Origin: Actinopolyspora lacussalsi subsp. righensis
Lineage (GTDB): Bacteria > Actinomycetota > Actinomycetes > Mycobacteriales > Pseudonocardiaceae
Assembly (NCBI RefSeq): GCF_900116555.1
Contig: NZ_FPAT01000001.1
Location: 372,001 to 436,000 of the forward strand
DNA length: 64,000 bases
Reading direction: 5' to 3'
Both the position numbers and the translations under genes were made by a program. Numbering within the stretch: the first letter of the stretch is position 1; each line of letters starts with the position of its first letter. Under the pieces are notes generated by a model. The model was not told the DNA's origin and made no database searches. It saw nothing but the letters and a program-made list of their open reading frames with translations. Of this stretch, positions 34,554 to 44,517 are shown piece by piece.

Positions 34554-35000
34554 CTATTCCCGCGTCGGCTCCCGGTCGAGACGTCGCATCTCGCGCACCC
34601 CGTCGGCGAGCGTGCGATCACCGAGCGCGTCGAGCACGGCCCGCTCCACGTCCTCGGTCAGCTCGGCGAAGTAGGCCTGCGCGTTCGCGGCGCCCCGGCA
34701 GTCGTGCTCACCGCCCGTGCGGCAGTTCCAGAGCGGTTTGTCGCCGGTCGAGCAGCGGTAGATCTCGGCCAGGGTGATCTCCTCGGCGGCCCGCGCCAAC
34801 CGGGCTCCCCCCGTGCGCCCCTTGGTGCAGACGACGAGTTCGGAACGGGTCAGCGGGAGGAGCAGCTTGCGAACCAGGCTCGCGTTGGTGTCCATCCGCT
34901 CGGCGAGCTGGGCGGAGCTCAGGGTCGGATCCCCCTCCTCGTCGGCGACGGCGAGCAGCAACATCGCCATCAGTGAGCTGGAAAACCTGATGTCCAGCAC
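34554..35000 (-). CDS. Rrf2-family transcriptional regulator
   Basis: A 148-residue Rrf2 protein (winged helix: SSAQLAERMDTNASLVRKLL, then GRTGGARLARAAEEITLAEI). Four cysteines in its middle and C-terminal half (VVCTKG, YRCSTG, WNCRTG, HDCRGA) could bind an iron-sulfur cluster or act as redox sensors, as in IscR and NsrR, but their spacing is not the standard one. The GTG start at 35000 has GGGAGGT nine bases upstream, better than the ATG at 35054. It is divergent from an Old Yellow Enzyme gene, with an inverted repeat between them, so it probably represses that gene until electrophile or redox stress. Confidence 0.9.
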   Translation of the reverse strand: MLDIRFSSSLMAMLLLAVADEEGDPTLSSAQLAERMDTNASLVRKLLLPLTRSELVVCTKGRTGGARLARAAEEITLAEIYRCSTGDKPLWNCRTGGEHDCRGAANAQAYFAELTEDVERAVLDALGDRTLADGVREMRRLDREPTRE

Positions 35001-35091
35001 GCGGGCAACACCTCCCTCCGTCGACCTCGGCCGAGCGCTCCCAGCGATCGACACCCCAGGTTAGCAACGCCACCGAGGTCCCTCACACCAG

Positions 35092-35118
35092 AAAGTGTAT
35101 CTTTGTGAAGAACACTTT
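35092..35118. promoter_or_regulatory. Inverted repeat, candidate Rrf2 operator
   Basis: AAAGTGT-N13-ACACTTT lies in the AT-rich divergent region, 26 bases before the Old Yellow Enzyme start and 92 bases from the Rrf2 start. Its size suits a dimeric Rrf2 regulator, and it would overlap the promoter or first transcribed bases of the enzyme gene. Confidence 0.6.
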
Positions 35119-35143
35119 TCATGTAGAGCAGGAGGAAGATCGC

Positions 35144-36265
35144 ATGTCCGCTCGCGCAGCGCAGGCACTCGCCCGTCCGTTCGCTCTCGGATCGATGGAG
35201 CTGCCGAACCGGTTGGTCATGGCACCGATGACCCGTGGTCAGTCACCCGACGGGATTCCCGACGAGAACGTGGCCGCCTACTACGCGCGGCGTGCCGCCG
35301 CGGGAACCGGTCTGATCATCACCGAGGGCACCTACATCGACGACCCCTCGGCCGGGGACGGCAAGAACGTGCCGCGGTTTCACGAGGAGGGCCCCTTGGC
35401 GGGCTGGCGCGACGTCGTCACAGCGGTGCACGAACAGGGTGGAAAGATCATGCCGCAGCTGTGGCACGTCGGCATCCAGCGCAGGGCGGGCAAGCCACCG
35501 GTTCCCGAAGCGCCCTCGGTCGGCCCCTCCGGTATCGCGCTGGACGGCACCCGGCAGGCGGGCGAGGATCTCTCCCTCGCCGACATCGAACGGCTCGTCG
35601 AGGCCTTCGCCGAAGCAGCAGGACAGGCCGAGCGCATCGGCTTCGACGGCGTGGAGCTGCACGGAGCGCACGGTTACCTGATCGACCAGTTCCTCTGGGA
35701 ACGCACCAACCGACGTACCGACGCCTACGGCGGTTCCCCGGTGGAGCGCACCAGGTTCGCCGCCGACATTGTCGCTGCCGTGCGTGAGCGGGTATCGGCG
35801 GACTTCCCCGTGGTGCTGCGGTTCTCGCAGTGGAAGGCCGACAACTACGACGCCAAACTCGCCGAGACCCCGGACGAGCTGCAGCGGATACTCGCCCCGC
35901 TGAGCGAGGCCGGGCTCGACGCCTTCCACGCCTCCGGACGCCGCTACTGGGAACCCGAGTTCCCGGAATCCGACCCGGACCTCAACATCGGCGGCTGGGC
36001 CCGCAAGCTCACCGGCAAGCCGGTCATCACCGTCGGCTCGGTCGGGTTGGACGCGGTGTTCGACCCCGCCACCCTCGGCGAGGGCGCGGGCACCAACGTG
36101 GCCAGCGTCGAAGGGCTGGCAGAACGGTTGGAGCGCGAGGAGTTCGACCTCGTCGCGGTCGGCCGCGCCCTGCTGGCCGATCCGGAGTGGAGCCGGAAGG
36201 TGCTCGACGGCCGGGAGACGGAACTCGTCCCGTTCACCCGCGAGGCGATGAGCACGCTGTACTGA
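35144..36265 (+). CDS. NADH:flavin oxidoreductase, Old Yellow Enzyme family
   Basis: A 373-residue FMN-dependent ene-reductase that reduces activated C=C bonds of enones and other electrophiles. Motifs: LPNRLVMAPMTRGQ, AGTGLIITEGTYI, QLWHVGIQRR, GFDGVELHGAHGYLIDQFLW (His-Gly-Ala-His active-site pair), RTDAYGGSPVERTRF and VGRALLADPEW. The ATG at 35144 follows GGAGGAAG with a five-base gap. It faces the Rrf2 regulator across an operator-like repeat, suggesting induction by reactive electrophiles. The gene ends before a strong hairpin. Confidence 0.95.
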   Translation: MSARAAQALARPFALGSMELPNRLVMAPMTRGQSPDGIPDENVAAYYARRAAAGTGLIITEGTYIDDPSAGDGKNVPRFHEEGPLAGWRDVVTAVHEQGGKIMPQLWHVGIQRRAGKPPVPEAPSVGPSGIALDGTRQAGEDLSLADIERLVEAFAEAAGQAERIGFDGVELHGAHGYLIDQFLWERTNRRTDAYGGSPVERTRFAADIVAAVRERVSADFPVVLRFSQWKADNYDAKLAETPDELQRILAPLSEAGLDAFHASGRRYWEPEFPESDPDLNIGGWARKLTGKPVITVGSVGLDAVFDPATLGEGAGTNVASVEGLAERLEREEFDLVAVGRALLADPEWSRKVLDGRETELVPFTREAMSTLY

Positions 36266-36338
36266 ATCAACGGCCGGGTGAGTGGCGAGCTACGGTCGCG
36301 GCCCCATCGCGGGACACAGCGGCGGGCTACTGCCCGGA

Positions 36339-36377
36339 GGCCTCGTCGGAGCGCCGTGACGACGCTCCGGCGAGGCC
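36339..36377. terminator. Hairpin terminator between OYE gene and the metal operon
   Basis: A 15-bp GC stem GGCCTCGTCGGAGCG / CGCTCCGGCGAGGCC with one mismatch and a 9-base loop, in the gap between two convergent transcripts. Confidence 0.7.
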
Positions 36378-36478
36378 TTGTCACACCGGCCGAACAGCCA
36401 CGCTGACCGGATCAGTCGTCGTCGCTGTCGTCCTGCTCGCTCCGGTCATCACGATCATCTCGGTCGTCTCGGGGGGCG

Positions 36479-37516
36479 TCACGGGATGAAAACCCCATCG
36501 ACGCGCGCGTTGGGCGGCCCTTCCGCACGGCCCCAGCACATCCGCGACCAGGGCATCTTGAGCTCCGTGGTGTCGACCGCCGAATGCGGTGCGAGCTCGG
36601 CGATGTCCCTCGCCGACTCGGCCCGGGAGAACACCGCCTCGTTGTAGCGGTGCCCGGTGTCGGCGGCGATGAACAGCACCGGCCCCGACGACCGGAAGTA
36701 CCGCTCCCAGCGTGCTGCCAGGTACGCCGCGCCGCTGGACAACCCCGCGAACACGGCGTGCCTGCGCAGCAGGTCCGTGCTCGCCGACAGCGCGGTGTCG
36801 AAGGAGATCCAGTGCAGTGTGTCGTAGGCGGTGTGCTCGACGTTGCCGAACGGGATGGAACTGCCGATCCCGGCGATGATCATCTCGCTGTCGGAGACGT
36901 GTTCGGCGCCGAAAGTGATGCTGCCGAACGGTTGAACACCCACCAGTCCGACATCCGTTCCGGTCCCGCGGAGATACCTGGCCAGCGCCCCCGTGGAGGC
37001 GCCGGAACCGACGCCGCCGACGATCGTGAGTGCTTCACCGTCCAGTTCGGTGCGGATACGATCCGCGATCGGGCGATAACCGAGACAGTGAATGTCGTCG
37101 TGGTACTGCCGCATCCAGTGGTAGTGCGTGTTCTCGTCCAGCAGTTGTCGCACGCGACGCACCCGCAGACTCTGGTCGAGTTTGAGATCCGCCGACGGTT
37201 CGACCTGCTCCAGACGGCAGCCCAGCAGGACGAGTTGGTTGTACAGCGTGGAATCGATGGTCGTCGAGCCGACGATGTGGCACCCGAGTCCGTACCTGTG
37301 GCAGGCGAGCGCGAGCGCGTAGGCGTAGATACCGCTCGAACTGTCCAGCAGGGTGTCCCCGGGACGCACACGCCCCTGTTCGAGCAATCGCTCGACCGCC
37401 GTCAGGGCGGAGACGACTTTCATCGTCTCAAATCGAAGGCATACGAGTCCCCTGTCGAGCCGGATCAGATCGGGGCGTGCGACTGCGTCCGCGATGTGCT
37501 CGTCCATGATCACCAT
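36479..37516 (-). CDS. PLP-dependent enzyme of the cysteine-synthase fold (SbnA/CysK-like)
   Basis: A 345-residue fold-type II PLP enzyme. Lys33 in RFETMKVVSAL is the likely Schiff-base lysine, SSSG at 59-62 replaces the usual substrate loop TSGNTG, GGVGSGASTGALARYL binds the phosphate and AGLSSGAAYLAA is conserved. It probably performs beta-replacement on an O-phosphorylated amino acid; the altered loop (SSSGIYA) suggests an unusual substrate. Its first 30 codons overlap the end of the kinase gene, which could supply that phosphoester. It is last in the metal-uptake operon. ATG 37516 is chosen, with 37507 possible. A metallophore role is inferred from context. Confidence 0.85.
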   Translation of the reverse strand: MVIMDEHIADAVARPDLIRLDRGLVCLRFETMKVVSALTAVERLLEQGRVRPGDTLLDSSSGIYAYALALACHRYGLGCHIVGSTTIDSTLYNQLVLLGCRLEQVEPSADLKLDQSLRVRRVRQLLDENTHYHWMRQYHDDIHCLGYRPIADRIRTELDGEALTIVGGVGSGASTGALARYLRGTGTDVGLVGVQPFGSITFGAEHVSDSEMIIAGIGSSIPFGNVEHTAYDTLHWISFDTALSASTDLLRRHAVFAGLSSGAAYLAARWERYFRSSGPVLFIAADTGHRYNEAVFSRAESARDIAELAPHSAVDTTELKMPWSRMCWGRAEGPPNARVDGVFIP

Positions 37517-38465
37517 CACCGTTTCGGGAACGAGGCCGAGTGCTGAACACTCGCGTGCTGGGAATGTCGTTGCGGTCCAGTTCGAACAGGCATGCCCGGA
37601 TCCGGTCTCCCGTACCGGGCTGGTTCGGGTCGAAGAGCAGACCCGCGACATTGCCGCTGTGGGCGATCTGCAGGCCGACGGCGCCGACCCGTTCGGCGAT
37701 CTCCGCGAGTGAGTCCAGTTGGCTCTTGTCGAGGATGCGCTGGTTGTACCGGGCGCTCTCGGTGCTGACCCTGCCGAGTAGGGCGACGTCGGACCGGGCC
37801 ACGGCTCGGCGCAGCAGTGCGCGCAGTCGTTCACCGACCCGCACGTCCCGGTCACGGATGTGGTGGGTACCCAACTCCAGGGTGTCGACACCGGTGGCGC
37901 CTTCGGTGAGGCATCCCACCACCACCGCCGGGGGAAGCCGGTCGCCGAGATCCTCGAGGACCCGCCCCTCCCGTTGCGCGAACAGCAGGGCCCTGTCGTC
38001 GAACATCAGCGGATCACTGGCGCGTTCGGCCGACACCGCGATTGTCGACACGGTCTCGGCGGGAAGGTGCACACCGTAGGCATCCACGACGGCGCGGATC
38101 GCGGCCAGCACGTCGGCACTCGACGACCCCATCCCGAGACCGTCGGGAACCTCGCTGCTGAGGAACAGTTGTCCGCCACACGGAGTTCGTGCCGTGGTGC
38201 TGCCACAGAGTTCGCAGGTCAGGATCGCCGCTCGTCGCGCCTTACTTCGGTCGTTCGGGCTGATGACCACGCTGTCCGCGGTCGTGTCGGGGTCGGGCAC
38301 GAAGACGGCCCTGCTACGGGGGCCGGCCAGTGGCATGGTCACCAGAGCCCGACAGGCCGCTCCTCGGTCATCGAGGAAGGCTCCTTGCAGGATTTCACCG
38401 TGATGGCAGCTGGATTGCCCCGTCCCGGTGGTCGGGGGAGTTTTCCGGTCGGTGGGTGCGTTCAT
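37428..38465 (-). CDS. GHMP-superfamily kinase, PduX (L-threonine kinase)-like
   Basis: A 345-residue kinase. The start GQSSCHHGEILQGAF parallels the GxxGELxQG motif of L-threonine kinases, the phosphate-binding GHMP loop VPDGLGMGSSSADV lies at 107-119, and LQIAHSGNVAGLLFD is the C-terminal Gly-rich motif. It probably phosphorylates a hydroxy-amino acid such as threonine or serine. Cobalamin genes, the usual PduX context, are absent here. It overlaps the upstream DUF364 gene by four bases (ATGA) and the PLP gene by 89 bases, so synthesis of these three proteins is coupled. The last 30 residues are in the overlap and look less conserved. Confidence 0.85.
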   Translation of the reverse strand: MNAPTDRKTPPTTGTGQSSCHHGEILQGAFLDDRGAACRALVTMPLAGPRSRAVFVPDPDTTADSVVISPNDRSKARRAAILTCELCGSTTARTPCGGQLFLSSEVPDGLGMGSSSADVLAAIRAVVDAYGVHLPAETVSTIAVSAERASDPLMFDDRALLFAQREGRVLEDLGDRLPPAVVVGCLTEGATGVDTLELGTHHIRDRDVRVGERLRALLRRAVARSDVALLGRVSTESARYNQRILDKSQLDSLAEIAERVGAVGLQIAHSGNVAGLLFDPNQPGTGDRIRACLFELDRNDIPSTRVFSTRPRSRNGDGDHGRAHRGRSRTPRSDPARQGTRMPSI

Positions 38466-39280
38466 GACGAGTGGGCCGCGCGGTAGCGGTACAGGGTGGT
38501 GGGGTTCGAGTCGAACTGGGAGAACGGGAAGGGTTCGGCGGACAGTGCGGTGACGCCGGAACCGAGAAAGGCTCTCACGACCGCGGAACCCGACTGGGCG
38601 TAGACGATCAACGGCACGTTCCGCTTCTCGCAGTGGCGCAGAATTCCGTCGAAAGTCCCGTTGCCCAGTGTCATGCCGGTCGCCACGACGGCGTCGGCGG
38701 GTTCGAGCACTTCGCTCATGACCGAGGTGACCACTCCACCGTCAGCGGTGGTGTCGAGGTTGTAGTCACAGGGCAGACAGGCGCACCCCCGTTCCCGCAG
38801 CGCCGCGACGAGCGGGGTGACGACACCGATGAGCGCCACCTTGCTCCCCGGTGCGAGTTCGAGGAGCCCCGCGATCGCTTCGTCCCGGCTTCGGGCCCGT
38901 TGCTCGGGAGTGCCCGCGGGTAGGGTGACGGCTTCCGCGTCGGGACGGTCGCGGTGGTGCTCGGTCTCGGTGAGATATGCGTCGAGCGCGGCGATACGAA
39001 GTGGGAGCGGTGCGGCACGGAACAGGGTCGCGAGATCGCTGCCCGAGGCCCCGGAACAAGTGTCCGGATCGAGCTCGCCCGCTTCGAAGGCGCAGGCCCC
39101 GTACGACTGCCCGACCCGGACGAGGACGTAGCGGTTGCGGTAGACGGTGGTCGAGCCCGCCAGCCGAGTGCCGTGCTGGATCCAGAACACGCTGGTGGCG
39201 ATCAGTTCGCTCGGGCGCGGTGACCCGGAACCACCGAGCACCTCGGTGAACAGGGCGTCAAGGGTCGCTGTTTCGGCCAT
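38462..39280 (-). CDS. DUF4213/DUF364 protein, putative heavy-metal chelation family
   Basis: A 272-residue protein. The N-terminal part fits DUF4213 (an enolase-N-like fold; YVLVRVGQSYGACAFEAGEL) and the C-terminal Rossmann-like part fits DUF364 (SKVALIGVVTPLVAALRERG; VVATGMTLGNGTFDGILRHC), a family described as putative heavy-metal chelation proteins. No biochemical reaction is established for it. It lies between the metal-binding lipoprotein and kinase genes; its stop overlaps the kinase ATG. The start ATG at 39280 is preceded by a distant AGGA. It could bind a metal or the product of the kinase/PLP pair; both are inference. Confidence 0.85.
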   Translation of the reverse strand: MAETATLDALFTEVLGGSGSPRPSELIATSVFWIQHGTRLAGSTTVYRNRYVLVRVGQSYGACAFEAGELDPDTCSGASGSDLATLFRAAPLPLRIAALDAYLTETEHHRDRPDAEAVTLPAGTPEQRARSRDEAIAGLLELAPGSKVALIGVVTPLVAALRERGCACLPCDYNLDTTADGGVVTSVMSEVLEPADAVVATGMTLGNGTFDGILRHCEKRNVPLIVYAQSGSAVVRAFLGSGVTALSAEPFPFSQFDSNPTTLYRYRAAHSS

Positions 39281-39333
39281 GGTGATGTCTTTTCCTGAAT
39301 CGGAGGGACAGACGGTGAGAGCCGGCTCGTGGG

Positions 39334-40323
39334 CTAGCGCCTGATGGAGCGCAGGTAGTCGGCGAACTTCTCGGCGGCGGCGATGTTGCGGGGGCCGCTG
39401 ACGGCGGCTCCGTAGTCGATGACGTGAAAGCGGTCGTTCTTGATCGCGGGCGTTTGCGCCAACGGGGGGAACGACTTCAGGAACGCGATCTTGTCCTCGA
39501 CGGGTTTGTCCCCGTAGTCGACGACGGTGATCACTTCGGGATTCGCCTGCACGACCGATTCCCACCCGATCGTGGTCCAGCGCTTGTCGAGGTCGTGCGT
39601 GATGTTGCGCCCGCCCGCCAACGAGACGATGGCGTTGGGTGCTGCCTGAGCACCGGAGGTGAAGGGTTTGTCGGTTCCGGAGTCGTAGATGAACACCCTG
39701 GGTGGAGTGCCTTGTGCTCGTTCCTCGCGAAGAGCTCGGGCGCGTCGCTTCAGGTCCGAGACCACGCGTTGCGCGCGATCCTCGATGCGGAAGATCTTCC
39801 CGATCTGTCGCAGATCGGTGTAGAGGGCCTCCAGCGGTGGCACGCGAACCGGATCCGATCCGTAGTTGAAGCAGCTCTCGGTGTGCTGGTAGCTGCGTAT
39901 GCCGAGGGAGTCGAGTTCGCTCGGAGTGATGCCCCGGGCCTGGCTGAAACCGGACTCCCAACCGGCGAGGACCCAGTCCGCCTCCGCGTCGAGGACGACC
40001 TCGAGGCTGAGCACATCGGTGCTGAGCGTTTCGACGGAGCGATAGTCCTCCCGCCACGGGGAGCGTTTCACCGACGGGTCGGCGGTGCTGGGCATGACGA
40101 TGCCCCGCATGCGGTCGGCCAGCCCGAGGGCGAACATCTTCTCGGTGCTGCTCATGTCGTAGGCGACCGGGCGTTCCGGTTCGGGGTATTCGATCGTGCG
40201 CCCGCAGTTGTCGATGGTGACCGTGCCGGATTCACCGTTCGAGGCGGGCGCGACGTTGGCTCCGCAGCCGGTTGCCAGTAACGAGGTGGTCAGCAGAAGC
40301 GTGACGGCGACGCGTGAGGTCAT
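39334..40323 (-). CDS. Metal/siderophore-binding lipoprotein (FecB/BtuF type)
   Basis: A 329-residue substrate-binding protein (Peripla_BP_2). Lipoprotein signal: SRVAVTLLLTTSLLATGC with lipidated Cys20. Conserved features include RPVAYDMSSTEKMFALGLADR, VLAGWESGFSQ, and the closing segment KNDRFHVIDYG. It should present a ferric-siderophore or other metal complex to the FecCD-type permease. The ATG at 40323 has AGGAGA nine bases upstream. It is third in the Fur/Zur-like-controlled operon; the ligand may be the small molecule made by the downstream enzymes. Confidence 0.92.
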   Translation of the reverse strand: MTSRVAVTLLLTTSLLATGCGANVAPASNGESGTVTIDNCGRTIEYPEPERPVAYDMSSTEKMFALGLADRMRGIVMPSTADPSVKRSPWREDYRSVETLSTDVLSLEVVLDAEADWVLAGWESGFSQARGITPSELDSLGIRSYQHTESCFNYGSDPVRVPPLEALYTDLRQIGKIFRIEDRAQRVVSDLKRRARALREERAQGTPPRVFIYDSGTDKPFTSGAQAAPNAIVSLAGGRNITHDLDKRWTTIGWESVVQANPEVITVVDYGDKPVEDKIAFLKSFPPLAQTPAIKNDRFHVIDYGAAVSGPRNIAAAEKFADYLRSIRR

Positions 40324-40353
40324 TGCGGATATCTCTCCTGTTCACAACGGTGA

Positions 40354-41115
40354 TCAGATGTCGTAGTGCAGCTGGGGGATTCCGGTGCGCGGATGACGGA
40401 CGATCGAGGGGGTGACGCCGAACGCCTCGTTGATCAGCTCGGGGGTGAGCACTTCGGCGGGCGTACCGATGTGCAGCACCGTCCCGTTGGCGAGCACGGC
40501 GAGCCGGTCGCAGGTGGCGGCCGCGAGGTTGAGGTCGTGCATGGCGATCAGCACGGTGGTCGAGTCCGTGCGCAGCTGGCGAAGCAACTGGATCTGGTGG
40601 TGTATGTCGAGGTGGTTGGTCGGCTCGTCGAGGACCAGCACGCGGGGTTGCTGCGCGAAGGCCCTGGCGAGCAGCACCCGCTGGCGTTCCCCACCGGACA
40701 GCGACAGCACACCGCGGTCGGCGAGGTGCACGACGTCGGCACGACGCATCGCCTCGTCGCGGACGGCGCGTTCCTCGGTGGTCAGCGGCTGGTTCCCGCG
40801 GTGGTGCGGAAACCTGCCGAGTTCGACGATCTCGGTGACGGTGAAGTCGAGATCGTTGCTGCTCTCCTGCGGAACAGCGGCGATGTGCCGGGCTGACTCG
40901 CGCGGTGCGAGGGTGGAGATATCGGCACCGTCGAGCAGCACCGCTCCCCTGCTCGGCCGCAGCGCCCGGTAGACGCAGCGCAGCGCGGTGGACTTGCCGC
41001 TGCCGTTCGGTCCGACGAGTCCGAGGACTTCCCCTTCCGCCGTTTCGACGTTCAGATCGCGGACGAGCTCGGTTCCCGCGAGGTGCACCGACAGGCCGTC
41101 GAGTGTGATCGACAT
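40354..41115 (-). CDS. FecE-type ABC transporter ATPase
   Basis: A 253-residue ATPase of the iron-chelate/cobalamin importer group. Walker A GPNGSGKST, Q-loop VPQESS, signature LSLSGGERQRVLLARAFAQQ, Walker B VLVLDEPTNHLD, and H-loop AMHDLNLA are all present. The ATG lies directly after the permease stop (adjacent codons) with GGAGGT six bases before it, so translation is coupled. It powers import through the permease encoded at 41116-42246. Confidence 0.96.
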   Translation of the reverse strand: MSITLDGLSVHLAGTELVRDLNVETAEGEVLGLVGPNGSGKSTALRCVYRALRPSRGAVLLDGADISTLAPRESARHIAAVPQESSNDLDFTVTEIVELGRFPHHRGNQPLTTEERAVRDEAMRRADVVHLADRGVLSLSGGERQRVLLARAFAQQPRVLVLDEPTNHLDIHHQIQLLRQLRTDSTTVLIAMHDLNLAAATCDRLAVLANGTVLHIGTPAEVLTPELINEAFGVTPSIVRHPRTGIPQLHYDI

Positions 41116-42246
41116 TCACCGACCTCCGAACAGGTAGCCGCGGCGTCGCAGCAGAACGATGAACACCGGAACCCCGATCAGCGCCGTGATCACGCCGAGC
41201 GGCAGTTCCCGTGGCGCGAACAGCGTCCGCGAGGCGAGGTCCACCCAGACGAGGAAGATCGCACCGATCAGCGGCGCGATGGTCAGCACTCGGCGGTGGT
41301 TGGCACCGACCAGCAGCCGCACGAGGTGGGGGATGACGAGCCCCACGAAGCCGACCGCACCGCTGACCGCGACCAGGCATCCGGTCACGATCGCCGTGAG
41401 CAGGAAGAGCTTTTTGCGCACGGCGGTGGCGTCCATGCCCAGTCCCGCGGCCGTCTCGTCACCGAGGGCCAGCACGTCGAGCGCGCGGGAGTTCCACAAC
41501 AGCAGCACCGTGGCGAGGACGACGGTGGCGGCGGCCAGTGGGAGACCGGACCAGGTGGCACTGCCCAAACTGCCCATCAGCCAGAACAGCACCGTACGGG
41601 CGGAGTCGCTGAATGGGGCGAAGAAGACGATCGCGCTCATCATCGACTGGAATCCGTAGGCGAGGGCGACGCCCGTGAGTACGAGGCGAAGCGGAGTGAG
41701 CCCGGACTTACCACGCGCGGCGAGGTAAACGAGGGCCGAAGCACCCAGCGCCCCCAGCAGTGCGGCGGTGGACAGCGCGTAGACCCCCAGGCCGGCGAAC
41801 AGTCCGAACGAGACCACGGCGCTGGCACCGACCGAGGCTCCGGAGGAGACCCCGAGGATGAAGGGGTCGGCGAGCGCGTTGCGCACGGTGGCCTGGATCG
41901 CCACGCCGACGACGCTGAGGCCGGCTCCCACCACCGCCGCGAGCAGCACTCGCGGAGTGCGCACCTGCCAGATGATCGAATACCCGCTCGCGTCGGCCGC
42001 GTCGATCGTTCCTCCGGTGACTGCGGCGGCGAGGTAGCGCACGGTCTCGGGCAGCGGCACGGGAGCCGGACCGAGGGTGATGCCGACCAGGATCGAGATC
42101 GCCAGCACCACCACCAACGGCAGGACCGTCGTGAGCAGGCTCTTTTCCCGGCGGCTCGCCGGGCGGACCGGCTGCGCGTCCGATGTCGGCTGGGCATCCG
42201 ACGTGTACTGCCTATCCGCTGTGGACTGGGTATCCGATGTGGTCAC
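41116..42246 (-). CDS. FecCD-type metal-complex permease
   Basis: A 376-residue permease with about nine to ten membrane helices (VVVLAISILVGITLG onwards) and the FecCD hallmarks IWQVRTPRVLLAAVVGAGLS and GLVIPHLVRLLVG. The first 35 residues are a polar leader of imperfect TSDAQP repeats not typical of the family. The GTG at 42246 follows GGAG at the normal distance. It is the first gene of a six-gene leftward operon whose promoter carries an AT-rich Fur/Zur-like palindrome. Only one permease gene is present, so it presumably acts as a homodimer. Confidence 0.93.
   Translation of the reverse strand: MTTSDTQSTADRQYTSDAQPTSDAQPVRPASRREKSLLTTVLPLVVVLAISILVGITLGPAPVPLPETVRYLAAAVTGGTIDAADASGYSIIWQVRTPRVLLAAVVGAGLSVVGVAIQATVRNALADPFILGVSSGASVGASAVVSFGLFAGLGVYALSTAALLGALGASALVYLAARGKSGLTPLRLVLTGVALAYGFQSMMSAIVFFAPFSDSARTVLFWLMGSLGSATWSGLPLAAATVVLATVLLLWNSRALDVLALGDETAAGLGMDATAVRKKLFLLTAIVTGCLVAVSGAVGFVGLVIPHLVRLLVGANHRRVLTIAPLIGAIFLVWVDLASRTLFAPRELPLGVITALIGVPVFIVLLRRRGYLFGGR
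42170..42246. repeat. Imperfect 18-bp tandem repeats in the permease start
   Basis: About four copies of an 18-bp unit of the form CATCCGAYGTGGRCTGGG encode the repeated TSDAQP-like residues at the permease N-terminus. The copies differ by several bases each. The repeats sit next to the start codon, so changes in copy number would alter only the polar leader. Confidence 0.6.
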
Positions 42247-42324
42247 TGGGTGCGCTCCGTCTTCGAAGCTTCGTGCGGGCGAGTGCGGGGGGTCGAGGTC
42301 GGTTTTCGGGGTCGCTTAGGATGC

Positions 42325-42354
42325 ATAATAGAAAACGGTAATCATTTTCGTCTA
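42325..42354 (-). promoter_or_regulatory. Promoter with Fur/Zur-like palindrome for the metal operon
   Basis: On the minus strand a -35 (TAGACG, 42349-42354) and a -10 (TATTAT, 42325-42330) are 18 bases apart, and the spacer is almost exactly an AT-rich palindrome GAAAATGATTACCGTTTTC (42331-42349; seven of nine pairs). GAAAATGATT is the half-site expected for actinobacterial Zur or Fur-family boxes. Metal-bound repressor on this site would exclude RNA polymerase. The divergent MFS gene starts 120 bp away and may share the control. Which metal is sensed cannot be told from the sequence. Confidence 0.7.
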
Positions 42355-42468
42355 CGGTTGATGTTCATTGGGAGAACAGTCACAGCGAAGACGCTTTCCG
42401 CTACCTTCGGTGCTCTCCGAAGTGGCCGATCGGGGACGTCCTCCCGTGTGCGGCCGCCGTAGGCGCGT

Positions 42469-43809
42469 GTGACGGGAGTCGATCCAGTGACATCCGCCCA
42501 GAGGCAACCCGAGGAAACCCGGCCAGGACGGCCGCTGCTTCGTGAGCCGCACTTCCTGCGGTTGTGGGCCGGAACGACCGCTTCCGGACTCGCCACGTGG
42601 GCGCTGCCGTTCGTGCTCGGCCTGGCCGTGCTCGACGGGAGCATCAGCGCCGTGATGCTCGGTGTACTGCTCGCGACGCGCACAGCGGGCTTCCTGCTCG
42701 CCGTGCCCATCGGCGGCGTGCTGGCCGACCGCTACACCAGTCGAAGGGTCGTGGCGTTGTCGGGACTCACCGCTGCCACGGCCACGTTCGTCATCCCGAT
42801 CGGGTTGGGGACCTCGCAACCACTGATGGCAACGGCGGCGGCCGTGGTGGGAGCGGGGCAAGGGGCGTGCAGGCCCGCGTTTCAGGCCCTGACCGCCGAG
42901 GTCGTCGACTCGGCACGACTGCAGCGGGCCAACGCCGCGCGGACCTTGTCGGTGAGGGTGACGACGCTGGTCGCGCCCGGTCTGACCGCGCTGGCGGCCA
43001 CCGCCGTCGACACCGGCACACTACTGTTGCTCACTGGTGGCCTCTGGTTGGTGGCGGCGTGGTTGCCTCCCGCCGGACGCAGGAATGCCGGAGGCCCCTC
43101 GCGCCAGGGCGGCATACCGTTCGTCTCCGAGTTCACCGAGGGACTGCGCGAGGCGCGCGGGCATCCCTGGTTCCTGGCCGGACTGGCCGCGTTGGCCACC
43201 GTCATCACCACCGGTTACTCCGCCACCGGGGTCGTTCTGCCGTTGATCAGTCGTGAGCGCTACGGCACCGAGACGGTCCTGGCCGCCGCGCTGACCGCTT
43301 ACACGGCGGGAGCACTGCTCGGGGCACTGCTCGTCACGCGGTGGCGACCCCGTTCGCAGGGGTTCTGGGCACTGGCGGGATTGGCCGGTTACGGCTTCGC
43401 TCCACTGGGGCTGCTGCTGCCGCTTCCCGCGGCAGTACTGGTCGCGGGCTACGTGCTGGCGGGAATCGGGATCGAGCTGTTCAACGTCCCGTGGTTCACC
43501 GCGACCCAGCGTGAGGTGGCACCGGACAAGCTGGCTCGTGTGTCCTCCCTGGACTTCCTGGTCTCCTACGGACTGGCACCACTGGGACTGGCGCTGATCG
43601 CACCCGCGGTGACACTCGTCGGGAACTTCTGGGTGCTGGTGGTGTGTGCGGCGGCGTGTTTCGCGGCACCGGCGTTGGCGGCGATGGCACCCGGCGCGCG
43701 TCATTTCACCCGCCCATCGACGGCGTCCGAGGCGTCGGGAAAGCGCGATACGGTTCCAACGGTTGAACGCGGCGAGAAGCAGCCACCGGGACCGACCAGG
43801 CGTGGGTGA
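42469..43809 (+). CDS. MFS exporter, EntS-like group
   Basis: A 446-residue transporter with twelve predicted helices, starting LREPHFLRLWAGTTASGLAT, and the MFS loop motif GGVLADRYTSRRVV. These are typical of MFS_3 proteins, which include siderophore exporters such as EntS. The gene starts with GTG at 42469 (or 42487), both without a strong ribosome site. It is divergent from the metal-uptake operon and the Fur/Zur-like box lies between them, so export of a metallophore made by that operon is a reasonable hypothesis; drug or metabolite export remains possible. Confidence 0.85.
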   Translation: MTGVDPVTSAQRQPEETRPGRPLLREPHFLRLWAGTTASGLATWALPFVLGLAVLDGSISAVMLGVLLATRTAGFLLAVPIGGVLADRYTSRRVVALSGLTAATATFVIPIGLGTSQPLMATAAAVVGAGQGACRPAFQALTAEVVDSARLQRANAARTLSVRVTTLVAPGLTALAATAVDTGTLLLLTGGLWLVAAWLPPAGRRNAGGPSRQGGIPFVSEFTEGLREARGHPWFLAGLAALATVITTGYSATGVVLPLISRERYGTETVLAAALTAYTAGALLGALLVTRWRPRSQGFWALAGLAGYGFAPLGLLLPLPAAVLVAGYVLAGIGIELFNVPWFTATQREVAPDKLARVSSLDFLVSYGLAPLGLALIAPAVTLVGNFWVLVVCAAACFAAPALAAMAPGARHFTRPSTASEASGKRDTVPTVERGEKQPPGPTRRG

Positions 43810-43866
43810 CGAGCGAACCGTCGAGCTCACTCGACAAGGCGAGGAGATGGCGGCGAGACTGTCGTC

Positions 43867-44393
43867 GTGGTCGGTTCTCCCGGAGAGTCCGTGCTCTCGC
43901 GCGTGGTACGTATCGTCGAGCCGTTCGGCGCGGACACCCCCGCGCCGCGTGTCTCCGCGATCGCGCGCCGGGCCGATCCGCACATCGCCACAGCCTCGCG
44001 CCTGGTCGAGGAGCTCGTCGGCCACGGCTGGCCGCACCGCGACGACGACCGGAGGATCCGGGTCGGCGTGCGGCTGTGGGAACTGGCCTCGTGGGACCAC
44101 CGCACGCCTACACCCCGGCGACGGTCGTGGATCCGGGCGAGCTCCGGGCGATGCTGGCCGAAGTACGCCGAAGCGGGATCGCGTTGTGCCACGGTTTCAT
44201 CGACACCCGTGCCACGGGTGTGGCTGTGCCGCTACGGGACCCGAACCACACCGTCGTCGCGGCACTGTCGGTGATCGCGCCCAACGACGAACAGGCACGG
44301 ATGCACGTGCCCACCCTGCGGGCGGCGGCACGGGGCATCTCCCGCACGATGGCCGGGCACGATCACGAGGCGCATCGCGGTATCGCTCGATGA
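43867..44393 (+). pseudogene. IclR-family regulator remnant, internally deleted
   Basis: The frame from 43867 encodes an IclR winged helix (VLSRVVRIVEPFGADTP, ADPHIATASRLVEELVGHGW, RIRVGVRLWELASW). Near 44100 the reading moves to another frame that carries the IclR C-terminal end (DPGELRAMLAEVRRSGIALC, ATGVAVPLRDPNHTVVAALS, LRAAARGISRTMAG). The central effector-domain portion, normally about 80-100 residues, is absent. The two ends occupy one locus in the right order, so this is a gene broken by an internal deletion plus frameshift. It can still be transcribed but cannot make a full regulator. Confidence 0.75.
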
Positions 44394-44517
44394 AAACGGA
44401 GAGATGCTGGTCGGCCCTGCTCCGCCGCCGTACGCACCACATATCCGCCCCGCCGCACACGCCGCCGAATCGCTTACCCGGGTACGCGCTCCACCACGGC
44501 CCGCTCGCCCCCGGTGC

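Follow-up and report, generated by a model that had tools for sequence, protein, structure and literature searches.

A kinase, an SbnA-like PLP enzyme and a DUF364 protein beside a metal importer in Actinopolyspora: a candidate zinc-responsive metallophore system

The operon and its conservation

The window analyzed here, i.e., the whole 64-kb stretch of DNA, belongs to the 4.9-Mb genome of Actinopolyspora lacussalsi subsp. righensis, whose nearest named relatives are Actinopolyspora species. It contains a candidate metallophore locus: a leftward operon of six genes with short or overlapping junctions, running from a FecCD-type permease through an ATP-binding cassette (ABC) ATPase, a binding lipoprotein, a DUF364 protein and a GHMP kinase to a pyridoxal phosphate (PLP) enzyme, and a divergent gene of the major facilitator superfamily (MFS) (Table 1). 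A sequence-only reading of the same DNA had proposed this tight operon with its divergent MFS gene. Gene order and junctions are confirmed, and Pfam backs every one of the seven assignments with scores over the cut-off. FecCD permease, ABC ATPase and the Peripla_BP_2 substrate-binding protein (SBP) stand together as in a FecBCD-type importer; the lipoprotein translation, inspected by eye, shows a signal and a lipobox-like cysteine. The best NCBIfam matches of the ATPase are corrinoid, F420-0, heme and siderophore ATPases, all of them below the cut-off. By Pfam, none of the seven genes codes for a nonribosomal peptide synthetase (NRPS) or an NRPS-independent siderophore (NIS) synthetase, and a scan of the operon genes found no sbnB gene.

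Table 1. Features of the candidate metallophore locus, with positions counted in the window
Feature	Position	Strand	Support
SbnA-like fold-type II PLP enzyme (putative beta-replacement)	36479..37516	-	PF00291 108.3 bits, cut-off 35
GHMP-family kinase	37428..38465	-	PF00288 44.2 bits, cut-off 22.3
DUF364 protein	38462..39280	-	PF04016 47.4 bits, cut-off 23
Substrate-binding lipoprotein (Peripla_BP_2)	39334..40323	-	PF01497 72.8 bits, cut-off 27.5
Importer ABC ATPase	40354..41115	-	PF00005 113.2 bits, cut-off 25
FecCD/BtuC-type ABC permease	41116..42246	-	PF01032 292.7 bits, cut-off 26.5
Degenerate Zur-type box, two overlapping 15-bp matches	42330..42350		Between permease and MFS genes; each match scores 10/13
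MFS exporter (predicted)	42469..43809	+	PF07690 97 bits, cut-off 33.4

Named-species genomes were scanned with an alignment of 13 PLP proteins, 12 of them from DUF364-linked loci. This gave 452 PLP-enzyme relatives, of which the best 80 by similarity, mainly from Streptomyces and in addition from Nocardiopsis and Pseudonocardiaceae, form our named-species set. The loci are related to one another, so that the counts do not stand for independent events. DUF364 was present in 77 of the 80 loci, the kinase in 75, the ATPase in 72, permease and SBP in 70 and the MFS gene in 68, and the three loci without visible DUF364 (L109, L125, L129) lie at contig ends. All six partners were found within 7.5 kb in 57 of the 65 loci that were uncut by contig ends. 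The PLP, kinase and DUF364 families thus co-occur with FecBCD genes, as the sequence-only reading had supposed, and the three enzyme genes are not usually separate from metal transport. Families recurring in at least 10 of the 80 loci were, antisense open reading frames aside, the operon partners and a methyltransferase only; they were called with a crude script that often picks antisense frames. With this caller no NRPS or NIS family recurred to that extent, which agrees with the earlier observation that no such synthetase is in view. The cluster is common in actinobacteria: importer, MFS protein, DUF364, kinase and SbnA-like PLP enzyme are conserved as a genomic unit, with Zur boxes in many of them.

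The methyltransferase, a small protein that is PrmC/MTS-like or a relative, precedes DUF364 in L038, L041 and 27 of the 80 named-species loci, where 26 matches were to the L038 protein and one to the L041 protein. Its presence in a subset of clusters suggests methylated product variants.

Zur-type boxes and the metal signal

From chromatin immunoprecipitation work, the Zur box of Streptomyces coelicolor is described as tGaNNatSatNNtCa (PMC5472717). Sites scoring at least 12 of 13 against this box occurred in the promoter regions of 37 of 91 loci, against 0.8 expected by scoring stretches of equal length in other parts of these loci; at a score of at least 11 the count was 76 of 91 (12.3 expected). 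Of the 92 loci entered, L090 offered no region to score, and one place was counted twice, as L038 and L092. In L050, L053 and L160, boxes (scores 11, 12 and 13) fell outside the automatically drawn promoter regions, and the count is hence conservative there. A second sample comprised 28 loci, 27 of them from the DUF364 search described below. Here, 24 of 25 sites scoring at least 12 lay outside, and within 400 bp of, recognized cluster genes; such a site was found in 12 of 18 kinase-type loci and in three of eight loci of a second cluster type (see below). Judged by these boxes, zinc control of the cluster family through Zur is well supported.

For the window's own copy zinc control is plausible. 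The window site CGAAAATGATTACCG at 42336–42350 overlaps a second match and is degenerate. Nowhere else does the 64-kb window come within one mismatch of YGANAATSATTNTCR, and the genome has eight such places in all; a second of them, a comparable site, is located just upstream of the znuA gene of the same genome. The remaining six fall within or close to genes that have no evident zinc link (some were scanned, the rest judged by eye), and a single match in this genome is therefore weak evidence by itself. The host genome has three Fur-family genes.

Iron control was considered and rejected. Against an IdeR consensus, the best place in the intergenic region of the window has 10 mismatches of 19. 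In the relatives, the best IdeR match has 2–3 mismatches in six of 80 loci and 5–8 in the other 74. The six better sites lie at least 2 kb from the PLP gene on its far side or, in L154, at the far end of the stretch, and none fronts the cluster. The metal is probably zinc, not iron. For the metal system proposed by the sequence-only reading, the boxes across the family are a regulation signal that points to zinc.

The PLP enzyme, the kinase and the DUF364 protein

The best NCBIfam match of the window PLP enzyme is the SbnA equivalog TIGR03945, with 131.1 bits against a curated cut-off of 349.95. We built a family profile from 22 PLP proteins, 13 from the window's clade and nine from lyase clusters (see below). 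Its closest solved structures are those of SbnA (E 2.7e-48), ahead of cysteine synthases. The predicted fold of the window enzyme matches PALP enzymes; in this structural comparison cystathionine synthases and SbnA are level, some of the former being placed as high as SbnA or higher. As in SbnA of the staphyloferrin B pathway of Staphylococcus aureus, the catalytic lysine and the Tyr152 position are kept in the window family: K33 is invariant in 22 of 22 alignment rows and matches the SMK-motif lysine of SbnA, and the invariant Tyr138 aligns with the tyrosine changed in 5d86 and 5d87. In contrast to SbnA, the window enzyme has a shorter N-terminus, the asparagine of the SGN motif is replaced (SGIYA), and a glycine stands at the SbnA Ser185 position. 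It is an SbnA-like fold-type II PLP enzyme and, by its family, would catalyze beta-replacement. SbnA itself is described to join O-phosphoserine to L-Glu (PMC12751119). Elsewhere in the genome (C4:94290-96150), an ornithine-cyclodeaminase homologue adjoins another SbnA-like gene; the two may form a diaminopropionate pair that is distinct from the window operon.

For the window kinase only GHMP_kinases_N scored over the cut-off. It is probably a kinase of a free amino acid, serine or threonine. The GHMP kinase adjoins the PLP gene in most relatives; in L161 a more distant kinase is placed divergently. Within the window's taxonomic order the kinase was present in 32 of 249 genomes, with an adjacent PLP gene in most such loci and DUF364 in a large subset. 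This distribution fits a supply of phospho-amino acid to the PLP enzyme. One genome (G180; L043/L226) has a kinase relative (51%) without recognized PLP or DUF364 gene, near a gene for a CobW-type GTPase, and Zur-like sites with 2–3 mismatches are close by.

The DUF364 assignment (PF04016) is based on both the gathering score and a two-domain fold, predicted with a confidence (pLDDT) of 90.5 and matching 3L5O and 3NPG. From gene context, flavin, pterin or siderophore chemistry was proposed for Dhaf4260 (3L5O), and for the family a role in condensation or hydrolysis near metal importers (PMC2954201). A class-wide search that began from DUF364 and not from the PLP gene found an SbnA-like PLP enzyme in the cluster of 29 out of 30 loci over the cut-off; two matches under it (G351, G014) were left out, L179 was judged from the larger stretch L050, and L212 repeats L096. 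The DUF364 protein is a probable second biosynthetic enzyme or metal-handling partner.

Eight of the 29 loci show a second architecture, some with Zur boxes. This type is represented by L169:6560-16783 (S. angustmyceticus plasmid p1), L168 and L217-L224, with genes for an ATP-grasp protein, DUF364, a PLP enzyme, a dipeptide epimerase, an MFS protein, a methyltransferase, a family-5 SBP and a permease. L169 has a perfect Zur-box match and L220-L222 have sites scoring 12. The second type perhaps makes a different, peptide-like zincophore.

Proposed chemistry, alternatives and related systems

A kinase search of the window's order gave 36 stretches, 14 with DUF364, 20 with kinase and PLP enzyme and no DUF364, and two without PLP partner (L043, L060). 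An argininosuccinate-lyase homologue was present in 19 of the 20, L066 being the exception, and in none of 90 distinct loci of the window's kind. The latter are the 14 order loci and the 80 named-species loci, i.e., 94 rows, four of which are repeats. In a tree of 52 PLP proteins (long proteins trimmed to the first 330 residues, read-through proteins at the first stop), the 19 lyase-cluster proteins split from the rest at 100/100. The lyase-type loci are L044-L049, L052, L054-L059, L061-L065 and L067; in nine of them the PLP protein has 739–782 residues, and the one long protein that was scanned, from L054, is fused to an ATP-grasp ligase domain. L066:8078-15612 has a PLP enzyme 57–58% identical to that of the window and a distant kinase beside ergothioneine-type genes, namely, EgtA over the cut-off, an FGE-sulfatase/DinB protein and a member of the histidine-specific methyltransferase family.

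From family chemistry, cleavage of an aspartate adduct by an argininosuccinate-type lyase would release a diamino acid and fumarate. As the lyase is absent from window-type loci, the adduct would persist uncleaved there. We hence infer that the chelator itself could be the uncleaved product of joining a phospho-amino acid to aspartate or a different amino acid. It would be a bacterial cousin of toxin A, aspergillomarasmine and ethylenediaminedisuccinic acid (EDDS), rather than a free diamino acid that would need NRPS or NIS enzymes encoded elsewhere. The chelator derived from a phospho-amino acid, as suggested by the sequence-only reading, is kept in view of the co-conserved kinase, PLP enzyme, DUF364, importer and exporter, whereas the comparison with lyase clusters disfavors a free diamino-acid precursor.

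Taken as a whole, the locus would be, with a probability of about 70%, a zinc-responsive metallophore system in which kinase and PLP enzyme make an uncleaved aminopolycarboxylate zincophore that is exported by the MFS protein and retrieved by the FecBCD-type importer. Under low zinc, Zur would leave the promoter region and the kinase would phosphorylate serine or threonine. The PLP enzyme could then eliminate phosphate to give aminoacrylate or its methyl homologue and then add to it the amino group of another amino acid, with aspartate as the likeliest donor. With no lyase step following, the adduct, an aminopolycarboxylate of the toxin A, aspergillomarasmine or EDDS type, would serve as the chelator; DUF364 might process it further beforehand, and some species might methylate it as well. 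Export would fall to the MFS protein, and the importer would return the zinc complex.

Several observations speak against this scheme. The window's own box is weak, with a score of 10 that is reached or exceeded at 82 places in the window, and a good Zur box is lacking in some relatives, for example, L104, L128 and L141, as well as in L205, L207, L208, L212, L213 and L215 of the second sample. The window PLP enzyme is far under the SbnA equivalog cut-off (131 versus 350 bits), and the ornithine-cyclodeaminase homologue elsewhere in the genome could act in trans. Aspartate as the donor is deduced solely from the lyase in sister clusters. The PLP enzyme of L066 belongs to the window's clade, yet neither DUF364 nor lyase is found there, and L207 couples the enzymes to a Dpp-type importer. 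No kinase was found in four of 21 kinase-type DUF364 loci of the class sample (L176, L177, L180, L183), nor in L158 and L160 among the 80 named-species loci, and the kinase is thus not indispensable. O-Phosphoserine is a normal metabolite, and some clusters may therefore dispense with the kinase.

If the PLP enzyme used sulfide or another thiol, the pair would make cysteine, beta-methylcysteine or a lanthionine-like ligand under zinc stress. Thiols bind zinc well, and cysteine and cystathionine synthases prevail in the superfamily; these match too, and some cystathionine synthases are structurally level with SbnA or above it. Nevertheless we consider this unlikely: the family profile places SbnA above CysK, the sister kinase–PLP pairs with a lyase homologue fit C–N rather than C–S chemistry, and among the families found in at least 10 of the 80 loci, none that handles sulfur was noticed. 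The enzymes might also only supply 2,3-diaminopropionate or 2,3-diaminobutyrate for an NRPS or NIS siderophore encoded elsewhere, as the SbnA homology and the ornithine-cyclodeaminase homologue on contig C4 would allow. That pair, however, has a PLP gene of its own, and the sites near the cluster are of the Zur rather than the IdeR type. Moreover, none of the 80 loci has a lyase homologue, and with the crude caller no NRPS, NIS or further enzyme family apart from the methyltransferase recurs in at least 10 of them (SbnB homologues were not searched in relatives). A mere precursor supply is thus quite improbable.

The importer genes lead the operon, and condensation or hydrolysis in the vicinity of metal importers has been suggested as the role of DUF364 (PMC2954201); the operon could hence import a metallophore made by others and break it down or remodel it, the MFS gene being incidental. 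Such salvage is very unlikely, as a kinase and a beta-replacing synthase look synthetic and the MFS gene is kept in 68 of 80 loci. Hardly credible at all is corrinoid salvage by a PduX-type threonine kinase and a BtuFCD importer. The best NCBIfam match of the ATPase is indeed a corrinoid ATPase, permease and SBP match BtuC and BtuF models (all below the cut-off), and PduX-like kinases make threonine phosphate, as the sequence-only reading stated. Yet the PLP enzyme has the PALP fold and not that of CobD, Zur boxes are present, and no Rfam match at E 0.5 was found in 35800–44500, from which it follows that there is no cobalamin riboswitch in this region.

The zincophore reading has counterparts among known systems. 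EDDS of Amycolatopsis japonicum is described as an aminopolycarboxylate repressed by zinc through Zur and made by a route unlike NRPS or NIS, with a structure that itself argues against such routes (PMC4993170, PMC9252823, PMC6103462); the window system resembles it in its putative Zur control, in the proposed aminopolycarboxylate product and in lacking NRPS or NIS genes. A Burkholderia paper names AesA-D, the four genes of a related operon for ethylenediaminesuccinic acid hydroxyarginine (EDHA) (PMC10702961), and a genome-mining study of Bacteroidetes cites the EDDS/EDHA work when discussing precursor genes of the sbnA/sbnB type (PMC9248904). In window-type loci, the crude caller showed no recurring enzyme family beyond their own set and the methyltransferase. 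We file the cluster as a probable small NRPS-independent zincophore system rather than as a member of the aes family. In a fungus, a cysteine-synthase-like PLP enzyme, of the same superfamily as the window enzyme, is described to join O-phosphoserine and L-Asp into the metal chelators toxin A and aspergillomarasmine, with mention of a two-gene cluster (PMC12751119). As far as the available account goes, it names no GHMP kinase, DUF364, Zur or FecBCD partner, which sets it apart from the window system. In the literature searched, judged by title and start of abstract, we found no description of a kinase–PLP–DUF364 set; the primary EDDS/EDHA papers were outside this search.

The sets of kinase, cysteine-synthase-like and argininosuccinate-lyase-like genes in the same taxonomic order resemble the window operon by having the same kinase and PLP families in one stretch. 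In contrast to DUF364 clusters, these sets include the lyase, and ATP-grasp genes or very large open reading frames are frequent in them (NRPS or polyketide synthase by size only). We take them to make a diaminobutyrate-type building block, presumably linked to friulimicin and malacidin.

To our knowledge, few zinc chelators arise independently of NRPS and NIS enzymes. If the proposed chemistry holds, it gives DUF364 a testable role and points to a bacterial source of aspergillomarasmine-like compounds, which are described as being studied as metallo-beta-lactamase inhibitors. A DUF364 gene adjoining an SbnA-like gene, often with a Zur box, may serve as a genome-mining signature. Going further, we may speculate, with less than even confidence, that DUF364 is a dedicated metallophore-biosynthesis enzyme paired with SbnA-like PLP synthases. 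The two would form the core of an unrecognized class of zincophore clusters, joined in type 1 by an amino-acid kinase and in type 2 by an ATP-grasp ligase and a dipeptide epimerase. The type 1 product would then be a marasmine-like adduct of serine or threonine with aspartate or another amino acid, left uncleaved for want of the lyase of the sister pathway.

Some neighboring genes and distant relatives may be added. A gene for an Rrf2-family regulator, divergent from an old-yellow-enzyme gene (window positions 34554–36265), also accompanies the operon in the three closest named relatives from Actinopolyspora. In Tsukamurella and a close relative, a superoxide dismutase gene is found near the cluster (L050:16424-17158, L166:3149-3883), of the Cu/Zn type by Pfam in L050. 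Kinase–PLP pairs also occur on rhizobial and Azospirillum plasmids, i.e., in L163 (Mesorhizobium pMLb), L164 (Paraburkholderia phymatum pBPHY02) and L167 (Azospirillum); the PLP enzyme of L164 has a GNAT domain, and in L167 an ATP-grasp gene and an argininosuccinate lyase follow.

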